Assembly: GCF_000739655.1 (NCBI RefSeq)
Contig: NZ_BATR01000118.1
Coordinates: 62,001 to 126,000 of the forward strand
Reading direction: 5' to 3'
Origin: Verrucomicrobium sp. BvORR106
GTDB lineage: Bacteria; Verrucomicrobiota; Verrucomicrobiia; Verrucomicrobiales; Verrucomicrobiaceae
DNA: 64,000 nucleotides
The notes beneath the pieces were generated by a model. It saw only the letters and a program-made list of their open reading frames with translations. It searched no databases and was not told the origin of the DNA. Positions within the stretch are counted from its first letter, which is position 1. Each line of letters opens with the position of its first letter. Of this stretch, positions 40,582 to 50,562 are shown piece after piece. A program made the position numbers and the translations under genes.

Positions 40582-42132
40582 TTACTTGCCGCCCATTGAG
40601 GCCTCGATTTGCTTCTGGACCTTCTCGAGATTGAATGAGCCGGGTGATTGGCTGGGCGGGTAGTCCACCATGGTTTTCAGGAAGTTGCCTGCAAACACCT
40701 GCATGGGCACCAGAAGATAGACACGATCAAGGAACCAATCGTTGTAGGTGTTCGCGTTGTGCTGGGCTTTCTCGAAAGGATCCCGCTCCAGATTGAAGAG
40801 CAGGGGCACACGCAGCTCGATGAAGGGCTCGCGCCAGACTTCAAAGGCGTGGCCCCGGTTTTCGAGAAACACCGCCTTCCACGCATCGTAGCGGATGGCG
40901 ACAATCTGACCGTCATCGTTCACATACATGAACTCCCGGCGAGGCGACTCCTTGGTTTTTCCGGTGATGTAGTCGAGCTGATTGTGGCCATCGATGTAGT
41001 TGCGATACTTGCGTCCGTTCAACTCGACGCCCGCTGCGAGTTTTTCCTTGATGTCTGGTGCGCCAGCGATCGCCGCAAAAGTGGGGAGCCAGTCTTCATG
41101 GGAGACAATGCCATTGAGCACCGTGCCTGCGGGGATGTGGCCTGGCCAGCGCACATAGCAGGGCACGCGATAGGCGCCTTCCCAGTTCGAGTTCTTCTCA
41201 CTGCGGAACGGTACGGTGCCGCCATCCGGCCACGTATTGTAGTGTGGCGCGTTGTCAGTCGAATAAACTACAAGGGTGTTCTCAGTGAGATTGTTGTCGT
41301 CGAGAAACTTCAGGATATCGCCGACCATGGCGTCGTGCTCGATCATGCCGTCGGTGTATTCATCATTGCCCTTGTGACGATGCTCCTTTCTCACGTGCGT
41401 GCGGAAGTGCATGCGAGTGGTGTTGTACCAGACAAAGAAGGGTTTGCTCGCTTTGGTCTGCCTCTGTATGAAATCCTTGGCTGCGGCGAGTGTCTCGTCG
41501 TCCACAGTCTCCATGCGCTTGCGAGTCAGCGGGCCGGTGTCCTCGATCTTGCCATCAGCGGTGCATTTCAGCACGCCACGTGGACCGAACTTTTGCCGGA
41601 AGGTCTTGCCATCCGCCATCGTCATGTCACCGGGATAGTCTTCATGCTCTGGCTCCTCCTCAGCGTTGAGGTGGTAGAGGTTGCCCATGAACTCATCAAA
41701 GCCGTGCTGGGTGGGCAGATGCTCGTCACGGTCGCCCTGATGGTTCTTTCCGAACTGGCCGGTGGCATAACCTTGTGACTTCAGCACGGTGGCCATCGTC
41801 ACATCAGTCTTCTGCCAGCCCTCCTTCGCGCCGGGCATGCCTACCTTGGTCATGCCGGTGCGCACCGGTACGTTCCCGCCGATGAAAGCAGCGCGGCCAG
41901 CAGTGCAGCTCTGTTGGCCGTAGTAGTCGGTGAAGGCCACGCCCTCCTTTGCGATGCGGTCGATGTTCGGCGTTTGATATCCCATCATGCCGCGACTCCA
42001 GAAGCTGGTGTTCCAGGTCCCGATGTCGTCTCCCCAGATCACGAGGATGTTAGGTTTCTTGTCAGCTGCGTGGGCTGCTGCCGTGGCGAGCAGACCACAG
42101 AGAGCAGCCATGACTATAGATTTGGCTTTCAT
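40582..42132 (-). CDS. exported arylsulfatase, Cys-type (sulfatase 2)
   Basis: Second periplasmic sulfatase of the cluster, 516 residues from the ATG at 42132 (signal about 1-22, AAHA|ADKK). Active-site CTAGR starts at Cys76 in YYGQQSCTAGRAAF; metal-site VIWGDDIG at about 31-38; GKNHQGDRDEHLPTQHGFDEF and STDNAPHYNTWPDGG later. It is strongly similar over its length to the sulfatase at 29319. Maturation of the Cys to formylglycine needs a maturase, none of which is seen in the window. The outer-membrane barrel genes flank it on both sides. Substrate unknown. Confidence 0.94.
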   Translation of the reverse strand: MKAKSIVMAALCGLLATAAAHAADKKPNILVIWGDDIGTWNTSFWSRGMMGYQTPNIDRIAKEGVAFTDYYGQQSCTAGRAAFIGGNVPVRTGMTKVGMPGAKEGWQKTDVTMATVLKSQGYATGQFGKNHQGDRDEHLPTQHGFDEFMGNLYHLNAEEEPEHEDYPGDMTMADGKTFRQKFGPRGVLKCTADGKIEDTGPLTRKRMETVDDETLAAAKDFIQRQTKASKPFFVWYNTTRMHFRTHVRKEHRHKGNDEYTDGMIEHDAMVGDILKFLDDNNLTENTLVVYSTDNAPHYNTWPDGGTVPFRSEKNSNWEGAYRVPCYVRWPGHIPAGTVLNGIVSHEDWLPTFAAIAGAPDIKEKLAAGVELNGRKYRNYIDGHNQLDYITGKTKESPRREFMYVNDDGQIVAIRYDAWKAVFLENRGHAFEVWREPFIELRVPLLFNLERDPFEKAQHNANTYNDWFLDRVYLLVPMQVFAGNFLKTMVDYPPSQSPGSFNLEKVQKQIEASMGGK

Positions 42133-42333
42133 GCTGTAATACATTTGTCAGCGTTGGTTGGGCAGGCTTCATGGGGATGAGGCCATTGGGCGACCCAGTT
42201 TGGATCGCTTTCGCCAGGCCCAACTGGCGAACAGGAAGATGACCATGCAGCGCTTCCCTGAGTGATGTCAGGCGGCGCGGGCTGGATGAAGCAGAGCAGT
42301 GCATGGAAATGGCAGGGGAGGGCACGATTGATG

Positions 42334-43203
42334 TCACTCCGGCAGCACGACAGTGGCGGAGAAGCGGAGGCCCCACTCAGGTCCCTCTTCGGGGGCCTCG
42401 GCGTAGTAGCGGCCGCCTAGTTGAAAGCTGACGGGCAGTCTGCCGATCTTCACGAGTTGGGTGATGAAGACATTGATGGGGACGGTCCATTGCTCGTTCT
42501 CCCAGTCGTAGCCGGACTCGAGATTGAAGCCGAGCGTGGTGTGCTTAGGCGTGGTGTAGCTCAGGAAAGGCTGCAGGAAGGTGACACTGAGTTCCTGGCG
42601 GTCATTATCTCCCGCTACGGACCAAAGGTGATTGGCGAGGATACCGGCCGTCCAGCCATGGGACTGGTGAACAAAAATGAACGAAGGACCAATGGCCCAC
42701 TTCTCAGTGCCCAGCAGGTCGTCTGTGGCAGTGGGAAATTGAAGGATGGGACCAATGCCAATCGTGGGCTGCCCTTCGTGCTTCTTCTGCGGGGCCAGCC
42801 AGATGGTCGTGTTCAGATCACCCAGTCCCGTCTGATCGGTGGTGCCGATCACGTCCTTCTGGGTGATGAAGGGCAGGATGGTGCGCCAGATGATCTTCCA
42901 GTCATCATTCAGCTCAATGGGGATGACGGGCTGAATGTTGAGCTTGTATTGAAAGCCATCACCATTCGGCCCTCCGCCCCAGTCGAAGTTGTTCTGAAAT
43001 GGCAGGCTGATGAGCGAAGCCGTGGGGTCATTCAGTTTCGTGGCAATGTCTCCCATGTCACCATCTTCGTGAGAGGTCGCCAAGGACGACTGAATGGAGC
43101 CGTCAGGGACAGGGGCGGCCTCAGGTTGGGCAGCCCAGAGACTGCTCGTTGCCAGAGAGAGGGCTGCAACAACCGGCAGAGTGGTATAGGGATGGAGGGA
43201 CAT
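42334..43203 (-). CDS. outer-membrane barrel/transporter-like protein, copy 2
   Basis: A 289-residue exported protein (signal about 1-25), paralogue of the 39671 protein. Matching blocks are LNDPTASLISLPFQNNFDWG, KLNIQPVIPIELNDDWKIIWRTILPF, GLGDLNTTIWLAPQKKHEG, IGIGPILQFPTATDDLLGTEKWAIGPSFIFVHQ, ILANHLWSVAG, and EEGPEWGLRFSATVVLPE. The start is the ATG at 43203, which begins the signal peptide; the frame stays open upstream into the neighbouring gene. It lies about 200 bases upstream of the sulfatase 2 start and 40 bases after the paralogue-B stop. Confidence 0.87.
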   Translation of the reverse strand: MSLHPYTTLPVVAALSLATSSLWAAQPEAAPVPDGSIQSSLATSHEDGDMGDIATKLNDPTASLISLPFQNNFDWGGGPNGDGFQYKLNIQPVIPIELNDDWKIIWRTILPFITQKDVIGTTDQTGLGDLNTTIWLAPQKKHEGQPTIGIGPILQFPTATDDLLGTEKWAIGPSFIFVHQSHGWTAGILANHLWSVAGDNDRQELSVTFLQPFLSYTTPKHTTLGFNLESGYDWENEQWTVPINVFITQLVKIGRLPVSFQLGGRYYAEAPEEGPEWGLRFSATVVLPE

Positions 43204-43243
43204 GACGGGGGAGGTGGATGGGCCGGTTGATGCGTTGGGGGAG

Positions 43244-44512
43244 TCAGCGGAGCGGACTGGGCAGTGCCTTTTCCACAAGGGCGACCTGCTGCCGGGCGAG
43301 CTCCTCCCGTACACGGGGTGAGGCCACGCCGGTGATCACCAAGCGGTGCCCGGTGACCGGAGCGCCGCGGAAGTTGGCCGTCCTTAGGTGCTCCAGAAAG
43401 TTGGCTGCATTCTGCGTCCAGGACGCATAGTCCCACTCCAGCGGCACGATGACGGTGCCGTCTTTGGCATGACACACGGGCAGGTCCTGGGAGGTGTAGA
43501 TGGTGGCCAGCGGGGTGCCGGAATGGATCTGCGCCATGAGATGCGCGCTGCGCTGGTAGAAGAAGGCATTTGCCTCATCGTCTGCGGTGGTCGCGGCATC
43601 GAGAAAACCATCACGGCCCGCCACGCCGTTCAGTTGCTGCAGCGCCAGGACGAGCTCTGCCTGCCGGGTGGGGGAGTAGGAGGGATTGTTCAGAAAGGCC
43701 GTGGCGAGGGCATCCGGAATGCCGATCCTCGCCAGCGTCTCCGCGTGAGCGCGACGAAGGTCATTGGGACTGCTGTCGCGGATGGCATTGATGGCCGTGT
43801 CACTGACCTGCACGGTGGTGATGGCGGTACCGGCACCGCCGCCGACAGGAGCCAGCGCGGCCGTGAGGGTCATGTTGCCACCGTAGGAGGCCCAGGCGAC
43901 TCCATTGAGGGCCTTCTGGAACACCGGGTTTGCGGAATAGGGATCCACGCCCAGCCGCGATGCAAGGTCGCGCTTGGCCTTGGAGAAGCCGATGGCACCC
44001 TGGACCTTGCTGTCCTCGTAGGGACTGTGCGGGCGGTCTTCGGTGGCCTCCTTCACCGCCTGGCCGGTACGGTTGATGAACTTGAAGATCCCTTTGGGCA
44101 CGCCAGAGATGGTCTCTACCGGGTGGGTGGCGAGATTCTTGGCGAAGTTCACCGGGCTCTTGGCGGCCTTCTCCAGCGCCTTGGCGTACTCGTCCGATTT
44201 GGAGATCGTCTGGAGTTGGGCAATGGCGTTGATCTCGGCGATGCGGATGACGAGCTCGGAATTGCCCGTGGCGTAGAAGGTGCCGAACTCGGAGTCGAGG
44301 GTGTAGGCGTTCCTTCCGGCAAAGGTGGGTACCTGAGGTCTGACGGTGTGATAGGGCCCTTGCACGTACTGGGGCTGCAAGATGGTGCCCGCATCCAGGA
44401 CCGGCGGGGATTCAAACGGCGTTGGCTGCACGGGCGATTGCGCACCCGCCATCAAGGGGGCAAGTGCGGCAAGGGCGCTCCATGCGAGGCGCAGAGTGGA
44501 GGAGGGGGGCAT
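43244..44512 (-). CDS. exported protein of unrecognised family, paralogue B
   Basis: A 422-residue exported protein (signal about 1-24, MAGAQS), homologous to the 32980 protein (see that entry for shared blocks). Additional features here are HPVETISGVPKGIFKFINRTGQAVKEATED (a helical stretch near 130-160), a Gly/Ala-rich turn VGGGAGTAITT, and the C-terminal WDYASWTQNAANFLEHL. No enzyme motif recognised. It starts 21 bases after the stop of the His/Asp-rich protein gene and is followed closely by barrel copy 2. Confidence 0.84.
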   Translation of the reverse strand: MPPSSTLRLAWSALAALAPLMAGAQSPVQPTPFESPPVLDAGTILQPQYVQGPYHTVRPQVPTFAGRNAYTLDSEFGTFYATGNSELVIRIAEINAIAQLQTISKSDEYAKALEKAAKSPVNFAKNLATHPVETISGVPKGIFKFINRTGQAVKEATEDRPHSPYEDSKVQGAIGFSKAKRDLASRLGVDPYSANPVFQKALNGVAWASYGGNMTLTAALAPVGGGAGTAITTVQVSDTAINAIRDSSPNDLRRAHAETLARIGIPDALATAFLNNPSYSPTRQAELVLALQQLNGVAGRDGFLDAATTADDEANAFFYQRSAHLMAQIHSGTPLATIYTSQDLPVCHAKDGTVIVPLEWDYASWTQNAANFLEHLRTANFRGAPVTGHRLVITGVASPRVREELARQQVALVEKALPSPLR

Positions 44513-44532: not shown

Positions 44533-45210
44533 TCAGATCTTCACCGTGGTGTACACCGTGACTCCATTTTGGAAGACCGGTTGGTAATAGACCCCCTGGT
44601 GGAGGAAATAAGTCTGGCCGTTGATGACGCTTGCCGTCGCGCCGGGCGGCAGGGCGGGAACGATGACGCCTATGGGTGTGGGCTGAACCACGAAAGTGGA
44701 ACCCTGTTGGACATAGTAGGAGCCGTTGTTGTAGAAGAAGGTCTGGCCTCCAAACAGGACGGGGACTGAGCCTGGAGGGAGGGCGGCAAGGATGGCGCCC
44801 ACCGGAGCGGCGACGGCGACATAGCCTCCGGCAGGTGCCGTCTGGTAGTAGACCCCTGAGGAATAGTAGTAGGGCGTGTTGGCCACTACGACGGTGCTGT
44901 GAACAGGAGGCAGGGAGTGGACAATGGCGCCGGTAACGATGGTGGCGGCGGCACCCACGGCCACCCCGCCCCAGAAGTGATCATGGTGATCCCAATCGTA
45001 GTCACGATGGACGTCCACGTCGCGATGCACATCGCGGTGGATGTCCACATTGCCTCCGCGCCAGCCGTGGACATCCACGTTGGCTGAGCGGTGGATGCTG
45101 GCATGGCCATGCCAGTCTGAGCGCGCCGAAGGGGTGCTCAGGACGGTGACGCCGACAATGGTGGCGAAAAGCGGGATGCCCTTGGAACGGGAAAAAGAAG
45201 CGGGTTTCAT
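44533..45210 (-). CDS. exported His/Asp-rich, YY-repeat protein (DUF6515-like)
   Basis: A 225-residue exported protein. After the signal (LFATIVGVTVLSTPSARS) comes a striking His/Asp stretch (HGHASIHRSANVDVHGWRGG, then HRDVHRDVDVHRDYDWDHHDHFWGG). Next are a glycine hydrophobic segment, VAVGAAATIVTGAIV, and two similar C-terminal units: APVGAILAALPPGSVPVLFGGQTFFYNNGSYYV and TPIGVIVPALPPGATASVINGQTYFLHQGVYYQP. The start is the ATG at 45210; the frame is open further upstream into the DUF2092 gene. The repeat units resemble DUF6515-type proteins, often located next to DUF2092 genes; function unknown. Confidence 0.82.
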   Translation of the reverse strand: MKPASFSRSKGIPLFATIVGVTVLSTPSARSDWHGHASIHRSANVDVHGWRGGNVDIHRDVHRDVDVHRDYDWDHHDHFWGGVAVGAAATIVTGAIVHSLPPVHSTVVVANTPYYYSSGVYYQTAPAGGYVAVAAPVGAILAALPPGSVPVLFGGQTFFYNNGSYYVQQGSTFVVQPTPIGVIVPALPPGATASVINGQTYFLHQGVYYQPVFQNGVTVYTTVKI

Positions 45211-45229
45211 GGAATGACGCAGTCTGGAA

Positions 45230-46048
45230 TTATTTTGAAGTTGTTTCCTTTTTCGCAGCATCCCCTGGAGTGGCGGCGGCCTTGGCCTTCTCTGCCGGGA
45301 GGAAATTGATCTTGGTGGCTCCAGTCGGAGGATCGAAGTTGAAGACAAAGTCGGGCAGCTTCGTGCTGAGGTCCCAATTGGTCAGGTGCGCAGTGATCTG
45401 GGGGCTGCCCTCATCAAGCTTGAAGGTGATGATGACCTTGCGTAGCAAAGGCTTGGGACCGTCTTCCACCCAGGCCTGCCAGTCGATCGCGTCATGCTGG
45501 AAAGCGACGTGGTGGCAGGTCTTTCCAAGGATGCGCTCCTTGCCCAGGTACGAGGCAGTCTTGGCCGCCGCGGCAGGCACTACCAGAGGTTTGGTGAGGA
45601 GCAGGTCGTCCAGAGGAAAGACCACGCCCAACGCCTCTTCCAGGTGGTCGATCATGGCATCAATCTGGTCCGGTGCCGGGCTGGTGCCGTAATACCTCTC
45701 ACGGTGATCCAGCAGAGTCACGCTCTTCCCGTCGTACCAGAAGCTGCGCTTGGGCTCGGTGGTGGAGATGTCCACCTGCAACCGATTGGGGCGCCGCAGC
45801 TTCACGTCCACCTGCTTGGTGAACTGGACCTTGCTGCCCTTTCCATTCACAAGATCCTGCGAGAGGTCAATGCTCGTCGAGAACTGCTTGGAGGCAGCCA
45901 GGTACTCTGAGGCTCTTGAAACGATATCCAGGGCTCTGGCGTCCGGGATGGGGAGAGGAGTTGCTGGCGCAGCGGCTTCCTGGCCAATTGCGACAGGGGT
46001 AGCCGACAGAACTGAAAACAGAAAACAGAGGAGCGGGGAGGGCTTCAT
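45230..46048 (-). CDS. exported DUF2092 (LolA-like fold) protein
   Basis: A 272-residue exported protein (signal about 1-22). The mature part has the DUF2092 pattern: ALDIVSRASEYLAASKQFSTSIDLSQDLVNGKGSKVQFTKQVDVKLRRPNRLQVDI, RSFWYDGKSVTLLDHRERYYG, IDAMIDHLEEALGVVFPLDDLL, and a C-terminal LPDFVFNFDPPTGATKINFLPAEKAK. DUF2092 proteins fold like the lipoprotein carrier LolA, suggesting binding of a lipid or hydrophobic ligand; this is a structural analogy. It is 19 bases upstream of the His/Asp-rich protein gene. Confidence 0.9.
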   Translation of the reverse strand: MKPSPLLCFLFSVLSATPVAIGQEAAAPATPLPIPDARALDIVSRASEYLAASKQFSTSIDLSQDLVNGKGSKVQFTKQVDVKLRRPNRLQVDISTTEPKRSFWYDGKSVTLLDHRERYYGTSPAPDQIDAMIDHLEEALGVVFPLDDLLLTKPLVVPAAAAKTASYLGKERILGKTCHHVAFQHDAIDWQAWVEDGPKPLLRKVIITFKLDEGSPQITAHLTNWDLSTKLPDFVFNFDPPTGATKINFLPAEKAKAAATPGDAAKKETTSK

Positions 46049-46232
46049 GGATCAAAGGGGTTGGGAAAGGGGTTATAGGAGCCAACGAAATGAGGCCAAC
46101 AACCCCTTCCGGAGGGGGTGGGGGCGAGGGGTAGCCTGAACGGAGCGGCCCGGACCTTGGGTGCTATGGACGATTCCTCTGGGGGAGACTCAGGATCTTA
46201 ACTTGACTTGATTTGCGGATTGCGAAGATGAG

Positions 46233-46287
46233 TCCGGGTCTCAGCGAATTGCACTGACATTGCTGTCAATGCTGACTGAGGCCCGGA
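46233..46287 (-). terminator. long structured hairpin between barrel gene and DUF2092 gene
   Basis: TCCGGGTCTCAG (46233-46244) pairs with CTGAGGCCCGGA (46276-46287), 12 base pairs with one G-U, around a 31-base loop that itself contains TGACA/TGTCA. It begins 12 bases after the stop of the barrel gene at 46299. It could terminate that transcript or be a structured leader; no T-run follows on the minus strand. Confidence 0.55.
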
Positions 46288-46298
46288 TCAATAAGAGC

Positions 46299-47093
46299 CT
46301 AGAAGGTGTAGGATAGTCCGACGATGGGGCCGTAGGAGGTGGTATCCAGCTTGAACCCATCCTTGTCGTAGTCCACTCCGAGGGCGCGGTAGCCGATCAG
46401 GCCGTTAAGCTTGGGAGTGAAGCGATAGCCGAATCCAGCCAACGCCTGCCAGGTAAGGTCAGACTCGACACCGAAGCCGCCGATATCGCCCATGACCTGG
46501 ACAAACCATTTGTCATTGAGATCGCAGATGGAACGGAAGCCAACAATGGGGTCAAACCAGTCCCTGGTAAGCCCCAACGTCACGCCGGGACCGAGGTTCG
46601 TGTTGATATCGATGTCGATATCAAAATAGGTCCAGCGGAATCCAACAAAGACGTCGAACTTGTGGCGGTCCGTCTTGCTCACGGTGTACAGTAGGCGGGC
46701 AGTGATCCAGGCCTGCTGTTGCTCGAAGTCGGCGCTGCCGTTCACCGGGCCCACGGCAAAGCTGCTGCCGTCTGAGAGCTCCGCATAGATGGCATCCACT
46801 CCCAGGCTCCACCGGCCCTTGCCGAGTTCAAAGTACCCCATGTAGCCAAAGTCGAGTTCATCGACGACGTCGGAGATGCTGGTGTCCGCACTGATGGACG
46901 TGGGGCCAACTCCGGTGGTGCCATCCACCGCCGAAGTCCAGAGATAAGCCGCCACGGTAAAGTACCAGTCGTCTTGTGCGGGGGGAGTCGGAGGAATGAT
47001 GACGGACTTTTCCGACGCCGTAGGAGTGCCGGCAAATGCAGTCCAAGAGGTCGCAAAGACCAATGACAATATAGGGAGGAGGGCGGATTTCAT
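46299..47093 (-). CDS. outer-membrane beta-barrel protein
   Basis: A 264-residue exported protein (signal about 1-21, ending TAFA) with the alternating pattern of an eight-stranded-type barrel: DWYFTVAAYLWTSAVDGTTG, FGYMGYFELGKGRWSLGVDAIYAEL, AWITARLLYTVSKTDRHKFDVFVGFRWTYFDIDID, NDKWFVQVMGDIGGFGV, TWQALAGFGYRFTPKLNGLIGYRALGVDYD, ending with GLSYTF (terminal Phe). Export and barrel form are supported; substrate or role is not known. Its upstream region holds a 21-base motif shared with the barrel gene at 47416. Confidence 0.86.
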   Translation of the reverse strand: MKSALLPILSLVFATSWTAFAGTPTASEKSVIIPPTPPAQDDWYFTVAAYLWTSAVDGTTGVGPTSISADTSISDVVDELDFGYMGYFELGKGRWSLGVDAIYAELSDGSSFAVGPVNGSADFEQQQAWITARLLYTVSKTDRHKFDVFVGFRWTYFDIDIDINTNLGPGVTLGLTRDWFDPIVGFRSICDLNDKWFVQVMGDIGGFGVESDLTWQALAGFGYRFTPKLNGLIGYRALGVDYDKDGFKLDTTSYGPIVGLSYTF

Positions 47094-47415
47094 GGTGGAG
47101 ATGAGAGTCAGTTCCAGCTTCTGCCAAACCGTGTTCTACATTCAGATCCTGCGCCTCGACCCCTGATCCTGAGGGCTCTGGAATAAAGGCGGGTTATCGA
47201 AAGTGTGGTGATATTAGCACATGCCCTTGAGCGCATCTATCCAATTTCCGAAAAAGGCAGGTGAATATTTTGTGCAGGGGATTCTCGTCTTGATCTGGGA
47301 ATGCGCTCGTTAACAACCTCTTGGAGATGCTCATGGCGTGAGATGCTCCGTCCCCGGCCAGCTCCGAAATTTTGATTGGGGCCAGCCGAGGTGGAGTCGA
47401 AAAAACCATTTTGGC
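47094..47415. other. intergenic region between two barrel genes
   Basis: 322 bases with no convincing gene. It holds the promoter area of the 46299 gene (including the 47241-47261 motif) and the 3' region of the 47416 gene, where CCAAAATGG is followed on the minus strand by TTTTTTC, a weak terminator-like signal. A short open frame at 47194-47409 has no signal or family features. Confidence 0.6.
47241..47261. promoter_or_regulatory. shared 21-base upstream motif, copy 1
   Basis: CCAATTTCCGAAAAAGGCAGG matches 48270-48290 at 18 of 21 positions with no gap, in the same orientation. It lies about 148 bases upstream of the barrel gene start at 47093. A regulator-binding site is inferred, perhaps for one of the nearby AraC-type proteins. 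Confidence 0.5.
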
Positions 47416-48090
47416 CTAGAACTTGAAGGTCAACCCTGCGCCGAGGATGTTGGCAATGCCATCGTCCGCACCAGCGAAGGCGTCCACATTGTAGAGGAAG
47501 CGGTAGGAGAGATCGAGGTTGATGGTCTCCGTGATGGCGTATGCCAGCACTGCCTTGGCCTGGAAGGCAAAGTTCCAATCATCTTCAAGGAATCCCACTG
47601 GGATGCCTTCTACGGAATTGCCGTCCACCTCACTCCAGGCGATGCCTGCCCCCGCACCCAGTTGCAGGGACAACCGGTCAGTGAACTTGATGCGGTACAG
47701 CCCGCTGAAGAGAATGGGCACCTGACGGAAGTCAGCATCCACACCGAGGTCATGGCCGCGGTAGTGGAAGTCGCCGGTATCTGATTGCAGATAACCGACC
47801 TCCAGTTCGAGGGCAAATCCAGAGGCCCACTCGTAGCCTACTGCGCCACTGACGGCCCATCCGGCATCGAAGCTGAGGCTGGCACCTTCCGCCTCGACGT
47901 CCTCCAACCAGGACACGCCGCCATGAATCTGACCATACCAGAATCCGGCCGGAGGGGGAGGGGTGATGGGAGGTTCGACGGTTCCTTTTCCACTGTAGGA
48001 GACGGGTCCGGCCAAGGCGTGCCCAGAGGCAAGGGCGATGGTCGCGAGAAGGGTGAGAGTTGAGGTCTTGAGTTTCATAGGTTGCTTCAT
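47416..48090 (-). CDS. outer-membrane beta-barrel protein (OmpA-like N-terminal barrel type)
   Basis: A 224-residue exported protein (from the ATG at 48090; starts at 48078 or 48126 are possible), signal ending near GHALAG. The barrel pattern is FWYGQIHGGVSWLEDVEAEGASLSFDAGWAVSGAVGYEWASGFALELEVGYLQS, a ILFSGLYRIKFTDRLSLQLGAGAGIAWSEV strand pair and a NLDLSYRFLYNVDAF strand, closing with NILGAGLTFKF (terminal Phe). It resembles outer-membrane proteins of the OMP-b-brl group. The gene is divergent from the AraC-type gene at 48461 with a shared motif in the intergenic region. Confidence 0.86.
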   Translation of the reverse strand: MKQPMKLKTSTLTLLATIALASGHALAGPVSYSGKGTVEPPITPPPPAGFWYGQIHGGVSWLEDVEAEGASLSFDAGWAVSGAVGYEWASGFALELEVGYLQSDTGDFHYRGHDLGVDADFRQVPILFSGLYRIKFTDRLSLQLGAGAGIAWSEVDGNSVEGIPVGFLEDDWNFAFQAKAVLAYAITETINLDLSYRFLYNVDAFAGADDGIANILGAGLTFKF

Positions 48091-48460
48091 TGTTTTTAGG
48101 TTCTTTGCTTGGCTCATGCTTGCCATGTTGGCAGGGCACGACTCTGGCTCTCTTCTCAGCCCAGTGTGTTGTAGTCAGGGTGGGGGAAAGCAGGGCGGCT
48201 TCCGGCTGATTGCCGGGAGCTATATTGGATGCGCATGCAGTGTAACAAAACGATAAGCGGAAATTCTAGCCAAATTCCGAAAATAGCAGGGGAGAATGCT
48301 GTTTTCCGATGACGGAGAAGCGGGGCTGACTTATTTCATTCTGGAGGTCATCGCTCGAAGGATCCCGTCATCCGGTTGCTTCATCTGAGAGCGGCATGCC
48401 CCGATGTTTCAGCAATCGCTTGGGAAACAACTCTCAGCAGTTGCCCGCAAGATGTGGGTT
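48091..48460. other. divergent intergenic region between a barrel gene and an AraC-type gene
   Basis: 370 bases, of which the part from 48404 could be coding if an earlier ATG is used for the regulator. Besides the 48270-48290 motif, I see no other gene or RNA. Both genes are presumably controlled from here. Confidence 0.6.
48270..48290. promoter_or_regulatory. shared 21-base upstream motif, copy 2
   Basis: CCAAATTCCGAAAATAGCAGG, 18 of 21 identical to 47241-47261. It is about 180 bases from the barrel start at 48090 and about 170-190 bases from the AraC-type start at 48461, so it could serve either. Confidence 0.5.
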
Positions 48461-49471
48461 ATGAAGACGCCATATTCCTACCGGTGCACCCGGTTGAATC
48501 AGTTCTGTCCGTCTTTTCTGGCTGATGCCATGACTCAGGGCGCCTTTGAGCATTATTTGCTGGAGGGAAAATCCTGTGATCACTCTCAAGAGCACTGGCA
48601 GTACGGCGGAATTGTGCTGGATGTGATGTGTGGTGAATTTGGCGAATGGATTCGTGGGACTTTCCGCGCGGACCGGGTCTGCATCGGTTACTTCGAGTCT
48701 GCGTCGAAGGCGGCGTGGATCAATGGTTCATCGGTGGATGACCAGGTACTGCAGGTGTACACGGAGAAGTGCGAGCTGGCATGTCGGCTCTATCCGCAGA
48801 CGCGGTGGGCCCTCATTCAAGTGCCTCGTTCGTGCCTGGAAAAGCACTTCCGCGAGGTTGTAGGAAACAGTGCAAGATGGCCCTCCCTTGAGTCAGGGGG
48901 TGTCTCACTTTATTCCGGTGCGGAGGGACGTGTGGACGTAGGTGTCTGCTTTGACTTATGCACCTATCTGCTGGGGAAGGGCGGGGATCTGGCAGATCAA
49001 GGAGTGTCGATGCTTCTGGCGGCCATTTCACGGGCGATCTTGGGTGGGAAGCGTCAGGTTTCTAAAGACGAAGGGGGACGAGGCTCCCAGGCGCTTCAGA
49101 AGGTGAAGCTGGCTGAGCTCTATCTGGCGGCTCACTTGGCTGAGAGTTACTCCAGCCATGAGTTCGCACGGGCGGTGGGGCTTTCAGAACGCAGCCTGGA
49201 GCTGCAGTTCAAGAAGATCTTCGGGATGAGTCCGAAGAAATGGCGTCAGTATATGGGGCTGAACATCGCTCATCGACGACTCGGGAATGCGGGGGTGAAG
49301 CCAGGGGTGGTCGCAGAAATTGCGGCCTCCTGCGGCTTCTCTCATCCAGGACGCTTTTCGGCCGTCTATCGCGAGGTGTTTGGTGAACTACCTCTCTTCA
49401 CGAAGAATGGTGAGAGACGGGGCCATTCTTTTAGTCAGCAGGAATCGATATTTAAGACCTTTATGCATTAG
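48461..49471 (+). CDS. AraC-family transcriptional regulator, copy 1
   Basis: A 336-residue regulator with a ligand-binding-like N-terminal part (SQEHWQYGGIVLDVMCGEFGEWIRG) and a C-terminal double helix-turn-helix: LAAHLAESYSSHEFARAVGLSERSLELQFKKIFGMSPKKWRQYMGLN, then VVAEIAASCGFSHPGRFSAVYREVFGELP. The start at 48461 (MKTPYSYRCTRLNQF) aligns with the neighbouring AraC protein (MGGTTLYRTLRLHRF); upstream in-frame starts at 48404 and 48452 exist. It is followed after 62 bases by its paralogue on the same strand, and is divergent from the barrel gene. Confidence 0.9.
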   Translation: MKTPYSYRCTRLNQFCPSFLADAMTQGAFEHYLLEGKSCDHSQEHWQYGGIVLDVMCGEFGEWIRGTFRADRVCIGYFESASKAAWINGSSVDDQVLQVYTEKCELACRLYPQTRWALIQVPRSCLEKHFREVVGNSARWPSLESGGVSLYSGAEGRVDVGVCFDLCTYLLGKGGDLADQGVSMLLAAISRAILGGKRQVSKDEGGRGSQALQKVKLAELYLAAHLAESYSSHEFARAVGLSERSLELQFKKIFGMSPKKWRQYMGLNIAHRRLGNAGVKPGVVAEIAASCGFSHPGRFSAVYREVFGELPLFTKNGERRGHSFSQQESIFKTFMH

Positions 49472-49533
49472 AGACGCTTATTAGGCTAAAGTCGTATGGA
49501 CAAGGACTGACAAATTTGATATTTTTCCACGCG

Positions 49534-50562
49534 ATGGGCGGAACAACTCTCTACCGCACCCTTCGGTTGCATCGGTTTGATCCTGAAATGCTCGCGAACG
49601 TGTTGTCGCAGAGCAAGCTGGAGCACTTCCTCATGGGTAGCGATCCCTGTGATGTGGTGCATGAGCACTGGGAGGATGAGGTGGTGCTGTTGGATCACGC
49701 CAAGTACAGCTTCAAAGCGTGGGTTCGCGGAGAGTTCGGCGACGGAAGGCTGTGCATTGGATTTATTCGAGATCATATTAATCCTTGCTGGATCAACGGC
49801 ACGGAGGTGCGATCAGATGAGATCGTCGTCTTCGCCGAGCATTCCGAACTGGCCTATCGTGCGGACCGCCACACCCACTGGGTGGCTACTCAAGTGACGC
49901 GGGATTACCTACAGACGATGGCGCTGGAGTTTCTGGGGGAGGAGGTAGAGCTTCCCAGCCATGGGATGAAAAAGTACCGGCCCCTTCCCGAGACGATGGC
50001 GCAGCTCCGCCGGGTCTTTGACGACTTTACCCGTCTCGTGCGGCGCACCGAGGTGGCGGTTGAGTGCTACAAAGACATGTTCGTCTTCGCCCTTGTGGCG
50101 GCCCTGGGCGGTGTGTCAGCCCGATCGACCCCGTCTGAGACGGCGAAACTCCAGCAGGCCATGCTCACGGTGAAGCGTGCGGAGGCCTTTATTCTATCCA
50201 ATCTCGCCCATCCCTATTCCAGCAGCGACTTCGCGGGGGTGCTGAGCATGACTGAGCGGAATGTGGAGCTACAGTTCAAGCGGATGTTTGGCATGTCGCC
50301 GCACCGGTGGCGGGAGTGCTTTGGACTGAACATGGCTTATCGGCGGCTCGCCCGTGCGCGATGGAAGGCGGGCTTGGTGTCAGACGTCGCGATGGAGTGT
50401 GGCTTCTCCCATGCGGGCCGGTTCTCCTCCAGTTACGGAAAGTTGTTTCACGAACTCCCGCATGAAACTGGGCGTGGCATGGAGCCTGCAAAGCTGGCCC
50501 CGCCGGTGTTTCCAATAGAAAGGGCGCCGGAGACCGGCGCCCAGGAAGAATCGAGCGATTAG
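49534..50562 (+). CDS. AraC-family transcriptional regulator, copy 2
   Basis: A 342-residue paralogue of the regulator at 48461. It shares the N-terminal HEHWEDEVVLLDHAKYSFKAWVRGEFG/CIGFI...CWINGTEV region and the C-terminal DNA-binding domain (AHPYSSSDFAGVLSMTERNVELQFKRMFGMSPHRWRECFGLN, then VSDVAMECGFSHAGRFSSSYGKLFHELP). A TTG at 49516 could start six residues earlier, but the ATG at 49534 is preferred. Its last codons overlap the probable terminator of the convergent fabH gene. Confidence 0.9.
   Translation: MGGTTLYRTLRLHRFDPEMLANVLSQSKLEHFLMGSDPCDVVHEHWEDEVVLLDHAKYSFKAWVRGEFGDGRLCIGFIRDHINPCWINGTEVRSDEIVVFAEHSELAYRADRHTHWVATQVTRDYLQTMALEFLGEEVELPSHGMKKYRPLPETMAQLRRVFDDFTRLVRRTEVAVECYKDMFVFALVAALGGVSARSTPSETAKLQQAMLTVKRAEAFILSNLAHPYSSSDFAGVLSMTERNVELQFKRMFGMSPHRWRECFGLNMAYRRLARARWKAGLVSDVAMECGFSHAGRFSSSYGKLFHELPHETGRGMEPAKLAPPVFPIERAPETGAQEESSD
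50510..50542 (-). terminator. terminator of the plsX-fabH operon inside the end of an AraC gene
   Basis: GGGCGCCGG (50522-50530) and CCGGCGCCC (50534-50542) form a perfect 9-bp stem with a 3-base loop. On the minus strand the stem is followed by TTTCTATT. It lies 61 bases after the fabH stop and within the last codons of the AraC-type gene on the other strand. Confidence 0.65.

Follow-up and report, generated by a model that had tools for sequence, protein, structure and literature searches.

According to our analysis, the motif that occurs twice in the window (the whole stretch of 64 kb analyzed here, G000:C92:62001-126000), once upstream of each of two outer-membrane beta-barrel genes, is very probably the operator of an adjacent AraC/XylS-type activator. 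This activator is most likely AraC2 (49516-50562); its paralogue AraC1 may act there as well. The genes and sites concerned are the following, with positions in the window.

40582-42144, - strand: sulfatase of the barrel1 module (Pfam Sulfatase, E 2.9e-44)
42334-43314, - strand: Phenol_MetA_deg-type porin of the barrel1 module (Pfam)
43244-44512, - strand: 422-aa protein of the barrel1 module (HEAT match below cut-off)
44533-45348, - strand: DUF6515 protein of the same module as barrel1 (Pfam)
45230-46048, - strand: DUF2092 protein, downstream of barrel1 (Pfam)
46299-47093, - strand: barrel1, 264-aa outer-membrane beta-barrel protein (Pfam OMP_b-brl, E 9.6e-6, below cut-off)
47211-47216, - strand: TAATAT, hexamer resembling a -10 element, 20 nt downstream of box 1; retained in G001 and G003 as TGCTAATATCACC
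47236-47254, - strand: box 1, predicted AraC site of barrel1, TTTTCGGAAATTGGATAGA (box A TTCG, N6, box B GGATA)
47416-48126 (start may be 48078), - strand: barrel2, OmpA-like outer-membrane beta-barrel protein (Pfam OMP_b-brl, E 5.3e-13)
48239-48244, - strand: TACACT, hexamer resembling a -10 element, 21 nt downstream of box 2; its counterpart in G001 is TAAGAT
48265-48283, - strand: box 2, predicted AraC site of barrel2, TTTTCGGAATTTGGCTAGA, in the intergenic region shared with AraC1
48404-49471 (start may be 48461), + strand: AraC1, AraC-family regulator (Pfam HTH_18, E 3.2e-17)
49516-50562 (start may be 49534), + strand: AraC2, AraC-family regulator and predicted likeliest binder of the boxes (Pfam HTH_18, E 5.3e-13)

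Two 21-mers had been pointed out by an earlier sequence-only reading at 47241-47261 and 48270-48290, both on the + strand and identical at 18 of 21 positions, and these coordinates are exact. With up to three mismatches allowed, they are the sole matches in the 64-kb window, and each of 100 shuffles gave none. The genome-wide search which that reading had proposed, carried out at the same threshold over 8.69 Mb, returned one additional copy only, C150:10765, with three mismatches; this copy and its relatives in G001 and G003, which have three mismatches and identical flanks in the three genomes, were set aside as sites. Since the barrel genes lie on the - strand, the meaningful strand of the motif is the complement of the 21-mer as it was first written. 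The likeness of the two copies extends to 26 bases, 22 of them identical (CCTGCYWTTTTCGGAAWTTGGMTAGA, barrel strand), and ends beyond; when the two upstream regions are aligned without gaps, their best match (18/21, 22/26) exceeds the maxima of 17 and 20 reached in 500 dinucleotide shuffles. The conserved unit on the barrels' strand is TTTKCGGAAWNTGGMTAG, and the CCTGC end of the 21-mer, formerly counted as part of the motif, is not retained in the relatives and has to be dropped from it. The distance to the barrel starts, put at 150-180 bases, amounts to 148 bp for barrel1 (ATG 47093) and 144 bp for barrel2 (ATG 48126), or to 192 bp for barrel2 if its start is the ATG of MKLKTS, as its G001 relative suggests.

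Both AraC1 and AraC2 score above the HTH_18 cut-off, which places them, by the C-terminal two-HTH domain, in the AraC/XylS family, and sequence matches in the PDB comprise two AraC DNA-binding domains, 3oio and 3mn2. Their N-terminal part has zero Pfam matches; the predicted model of AraC2 is strand-rich there, at a mean pLDDT of only 50. An orthologue of AraC1 is present in G001. The DUF2092 gene likely shares the transcript or module of barrel1, and its relative in G003 carries an exact box of its own. The DUF6515 gene comes after DUF2092 in G001 and in the G003 operon, the 422-aa protein (91% in G001) keeps an identical position there, relatives of the porin are found in the G003, G019, and G000:C26 clusters, and relatives of the sulfatase elsewhere are often the divergent neighbor of this AraC type. 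By eye, the sulfatase at 40582-42144 holds SCTAGR near its N terminus, which corresponds to the active-site signature in its CXAXR form. Between barrel2 and barrel1, G001 contains one more DUF2092-like gene (24%; L134:2694-3452) that is absent from the window.

Conservation of the boxes was followed in a genus sample of four genomes, G000 (that of the window) to G003. The barrel1 orthologues of G001 and G003, 79 to 80% identical to barrel1, are likewise preceded by box 1, and the barrel2 counterpart of G001 (87% identity) is preceded by box 2, which there departs from the pattern at one position; in G001, each barrel gene has its box at the matching place, followed by the hexamers TAAGAT (barrel2) and TAATAT (barrel1). 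There is one box per barrel promoter in L001 (search at up to five mismatches), and the barrel2 paralogues (L012-L014) have none at that threshold, bar one reverse match in L012. The gene order in G003 is fabH, AraC2, box, barrel1, the AraC2 orthologue (79%) being divergent from barrel1 with the box between them; neither a good AraC1 match nor a barrel2 orthologue was found in this genome, which has only a 43% barrel2 relative about 7 kb further on. Because G003 thus holds AraC2, box, and barrel1 without AraC1 and a barrel2 orthologue, AraC2-box-barrel1 is probably the older arrangement and AraC1-box2-barrel2 the later one. G003 keeps the sites although AraC1 is absent, so the older partner of the boxes looks like AraC2 rather than AraC1. 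The recognition helices of AraC1 and AraC2 are similar, and therefore both proteins may bind the boxes. In G002 (2.5 Mb, 76% complete), AraC matches do not go beyond the HTH level, and sites at up to two mismatches are absent.

At up to three mismatches, TTTTCGGAAWYTGGMTAGA has 8, 14, 1, and 7 matches in G000, G001, G002, and G003, against 3, 4, 3, and 2 for the reversed control. Many random copies in coding DNA had been named as the outcome that would speak against a shared site; sites with zero or one mismatch are instead few family-wide. Ten such sites exist among 59 family genomes, only in G000, G001, and G003, the congeneric genomes that carry these AraC genes, where they precede module genes or aqpZ, while matches with two mismatches, which 14 of the remaining 55 family genomes have, represent background. 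The genus sites at zero to two mismatches number 13. They precede barrel1 (three genomes), barrel2 (two), aqpZ of the MIP family (three), the DUF2092-DUF6515-porin-sulfatase operon (G003), an alpha/beta hydrolase gene (G001) whose relative in G003 lies within the cluster behind the DUF2092 operon, and the gene of a 73-aa Asp/Arg-rich lipoprotein (G003 and G001; the G000 copy has three mismatches); the remaining one, in G001:C160, is without an identifiable module gene. From these sites, the regulon would extend beyond the two barrels. The small lipoprotein is rich in Asp-Arg and Arg-Glu, has no Pfam match, and has its own box in the window's genus (L087:1085-1306, L089, L091, L125:4644-4877, L126:4719-5000, and L129:3679-3903); it adjoins barrel1 homologues in G004, G008, and G000:C26.

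In other genera and in other families, the region upstream of AraC homologues (27 to 36% identity) contains a box that is almost the same. In G019, the AraC gene lies within 19 kb of sulfatase, hydrolase, DUF2092, barrel1, and porin genes; the clusters of G004 and G008 comprise AraC, sulfatase, lipoprotein, and barrel1 and that of G015 comprises AraC, sulfatase, and barrel1, with aqpZ and barrel2 absent from the AraC clusters of all four. The region beside the AraC gene contains TTGTGCGCAAAATGGATAG in G004, G008, and G015 and TTTTTCGTTTAATGGATAA plus GGTTCGTTTTTTGGATAG in G019. The closest barrel1 relatives in genus g2 (G004 and G014) have no box within five mismatches. We set the prediction beforehand that AraC2-type genes elsewhere carry T[TG]CG-N6-GG[N]TA with TGGATA, and nine new loci from two other families were picked by AraC2 similarity. 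The pattern is present in the AraC upstream region of eight of the nine (G071, G110, G123, G135, G138, G144, G148, and G337), in the TGGATA form in seven of the nine new loci, G138 having CGGATA; the ninth, G141, fails the strict pattern and carries the relaxed form CGTTTTTCGGATAG. In 7/8 cases the box precedes a called divergent gene, which is a sulfatase gene in G110, G123, G135, G144, and G148; the gene called next in G138 is oriented the opposite way, and the box there stands before no called gene on its strand. The strict box has five other matches in the 110 kb of the nine test loci (L150:5696, L151:10024, L153:500, and L156:4628 and 8499). In G130, a genome found later, TTGTGCGCAAAACGGATAG lies before a gene that reads as a sulfatase by eye.

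A relaxed box, CG-N5-[TC]GG[AC]TA[GA], scanned from 250 bases before to 200 bases after the called start, was present at 16/16 loci of this AraC type and at 0/21 control AraC loci, a form that was defined after G004, G008, G015, G019, and G141 had been seen, so that the prospective part consists of the 8/9 loci and G130 only. This count takes one AraC per genome, namely AraC1 for G000 and G001, the AraC2 of these two genomes being the second gene in tandem and left out; of 26 other AraC loci, 5 without a clear open reading frame (ORF) or upstream sequence were dropped, and 21 were scored as controls. There is one box per region, always oriented away from the AraC gene, and in G004 and G008 it falls inside the AraC ORF as called from the first possible start. 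In a sample of the order comprising 386 genomes, AraC2 homologues (E 1e-20) were detected in 13 and exact TTCGGAANNTGGATAG in 25 (reversed control, 10 of 386): the motif is found in 10/13 genomes with the regulator versus 15/373 without it (Fisher p 4.7e-11, with related genomes treated as independent). In the 15 motif genomes without this AraC, 11 matches lie inside ORFs and 4 are intergenic. The phylum sample of 387 genomes gave four AraC matches at E 1e-30, all within the order, with a cut-off that misses distant members such as the AraC of G008, which was in the sample, and a scan of genome contigs covering close relatives only returned three loci, two of them weak matches and the third a stretch of AraC2 at 75% in Verrucomicrobium sp. 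BvORR034. Conservation, linkage, and co-occurrence among genomes thus support, for a predicted site, the original suggestion of a common regulator site, perhaps for an AraC protein.

Some further observations concern the loci of these genomes. In two genomes of genus g2 (L135:2162-4186 and L052:218-1375), two genes that look response-regulator-like by eye stand before the closest barrel1 relative, which has no box; a change of regulator is possible there. In four g40 genomes (L164, L166, L167, and L169), a fabF-like gene (by eye) is preceded, at about 57 bp, by a conserved TTCGGAAGGTGGATAG; an AraC2 homologue was not detected in these genomes, and chance or another regulator may account for the match. 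Six sites, those of G110, G135, G138, and G148 and both of G337 (L149, L151, L152, L155, and L156 with two sites), have GTAAA 7 to 8 bases before TTCG, which the others do not have; the word may belong to the promoter of the AraC gene itself or mark a second contact.

In the 20 collected sites, which had for the most part been located with such patterns, box A is invariant at CG and box B at GG, T, and A, and the N6 gap with GG[AC]TA at a fixed distance is present in all 20. Box A is of the CGGAA type with AraC proteins whose first helix-turn-helix (HTH1) is of the F[KRQ][EKR] type, of the CGTTT type with FLAA/FLDA-type HTH1 (G019 and G141), and of the GCGCAAA type (GCGCAAAA) with HTH1 SRRELEYAF (G004, G008, G015, and G130). 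HTH2 reads H.GRF in 17/17 rows, and box B barely varies; HTH2 of G130 is HLSRF, one of the five outgroup rows has HLTRF and the other four are more divergent, and in the AraC of G148 the frame departs after HLGRF and the match holds stop codons. Because HTH1 varies with the class of box A, while HTH2 and box B are nearly constant, this comparison suggests that HTH1 reads box A and HTH2 reads box B, an assignment that is also that of XylS and MarA. The three helix/box classes are also clades, and therefore descent alone could pair them.

It is very unlikely that the boxes are instead bound by a regulator encoded elsewhere, with the AraC protein as a neighbor or target rather than the binder. 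Such a regulator would fit the constant presence of the box in the AraC upstream region, from where it could also control the AraC gene, and the sites at aqpZ and other genes that are not near an AraC gene. Three observations speak against such a regulator, however: box A changes together with HTH1 of the AraC encoded beside it, a covariation seen among three clades only; the orientation of the box is invariably away from the AraC gene; and genomes that do not have this AraC carry the motif at a frequency close to background.

Over the 20 sites, a -10-like hexamer lies 18 to 21 nt downstream of the box, with a mean best score as good in 0/2000 shuffles and with poor hexamers (score of ≤2.5) at seven sites, those of DUF2092, the hydrolase, the lipoprotein, G008, G015, and G019 (twice). 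No TTGACA-like -35 element is present at the barrel boxes, and the sole sigma-70-like TTGACA/TATAAT match in 46000-48600, at 48552-48580, is away from both. From the hexamer spacing and this lack of a sigma-70-like match at the boxes, it follows that box B covers the -35 region. The sites thereby have the layout of class II sites, overlapping -35 about 20 nt before the -10 hexamer, though with the seven poor hexamers. Transcription would start near 47204 (box 1) and 48232 (box 2). In the mechanism that we propose, HTH1 of the regulator would read box A (TTTKCG) and HTH2 would read box B (TGGMTAG), which follows after one turn and occupies about -38 to -33 with respect to the -10-like hexamer; the bound regulator, presumably in response to a signal, would replace the missing -35 element and recruit sigma-70 RNA polymerase, activating rather than repressing in the manner of class II. 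Its targets would be barrel1 and the module behind it (DUF2092, DUF6515, porin, and sulfatase), presumably up to the limits of the transcript, as well as barrel2 and, elsewhere in the genome, aqpZ and perhaps the small lipoprotein gene.

A -35 region for an alternative sigma factor of the ECF type, with GGAA as its core and the AraC genes as mere neighbors, is a very unlikely reading of the motif. The sites do lie at promoters, followed by a hexamer whose distance is fairly constant, and GGAA resembles ECF -35 cores. The hexamer, however, is sigma-70-like and about 29 nt from GGAA, which is too far for an ECF promoter, and other genera have GCAAA or GTTT in place of GGAA while GGATA is kept; the ECF reading was rejected on the spacing and the loss of GGAA, and the 16/16 versus 0/21 linkage of the relaxed box also counts against it. 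That the window copies are a nonfunctional leftover of a local duplication of AraC and its upstream region, from which AraC1-box2 may stem given the simpler G003 order, is extremely improbable, since the upstream regions are unlike outside the 26-bp unit and both boxes are kept in G001 though the bases just upstream of them differ. We therefore retain the AraC operator as the best explanation.

MarA, SoxS, and RamA are small and are not known to have a counterpart of the N-terminal part of AraC1 and AraC2. The predicted sites share with these regulators the class II layout, in which the site overlaps the promoter core (that of RamA at micF lies near -41), and two HTHs of one monomer in adjacent grooves, as partly described in PMC8811837; the consensus here is different. 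In excerpts of PMC9722767, the Pm box of XylS from Pseudomonas putida is given as TGCA-N6-GGNTA, and in those of PMC5481539 its box B is given as GGTA. Like XylS/Pm, as far as these excerpts of PMC9722767 and PMC5481539 describe it, the system identified here belongs to the AraC/XylS family and has a 15-bp asymmetric site with a 4-nt box A, a 6-nt gap, and a GGNTA-type box B. Unlike XylS, whose box A is TGCA and which has two direct repeats, it has T[TG]CG as box A in 20/20 sites, a single box per promoter, and different targets. Compared by sequence, the unit of the window resembles a XylS half-site and is not one; the kind of system is already known, and this example of regulator and operator is new.

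It is conceivable, if not quite probable, that these proteins form an order-wide AraC subfamily with one operator design across three families, in which box B would be frozen and box A would drift with HTH1, acting in the window's genus, where it is duplicated, as a regulator of scattered genes including aquaporin and being tied elsewhere to one sulfatase-membrane cluster. No description of such an AraC subfamily or regulon was found in the listed titles and abstract starts of open-licence papers. If HTH1 sets the preference, an AraC of the G004 type (SRRELEYAF) is expected to favor its own TTGTGCGCAAAATGGATAG over TTTTCGGAA boxes. To our knowledge, operators of regulators in the Verrucomicrobia are little studied. 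In the present case, a regulator type could be matched to its probable operator in 17 loci from sequence comparison alone. This yields a regulon prediction, centered on sulfatase and outer-membrane genes, that is ready for use, and the natural helix/box variants are usable to probe how AraC proteins choose DNA. If the subfamily is real, natural genomes would already hold part of a recognition code for AraC proteins.
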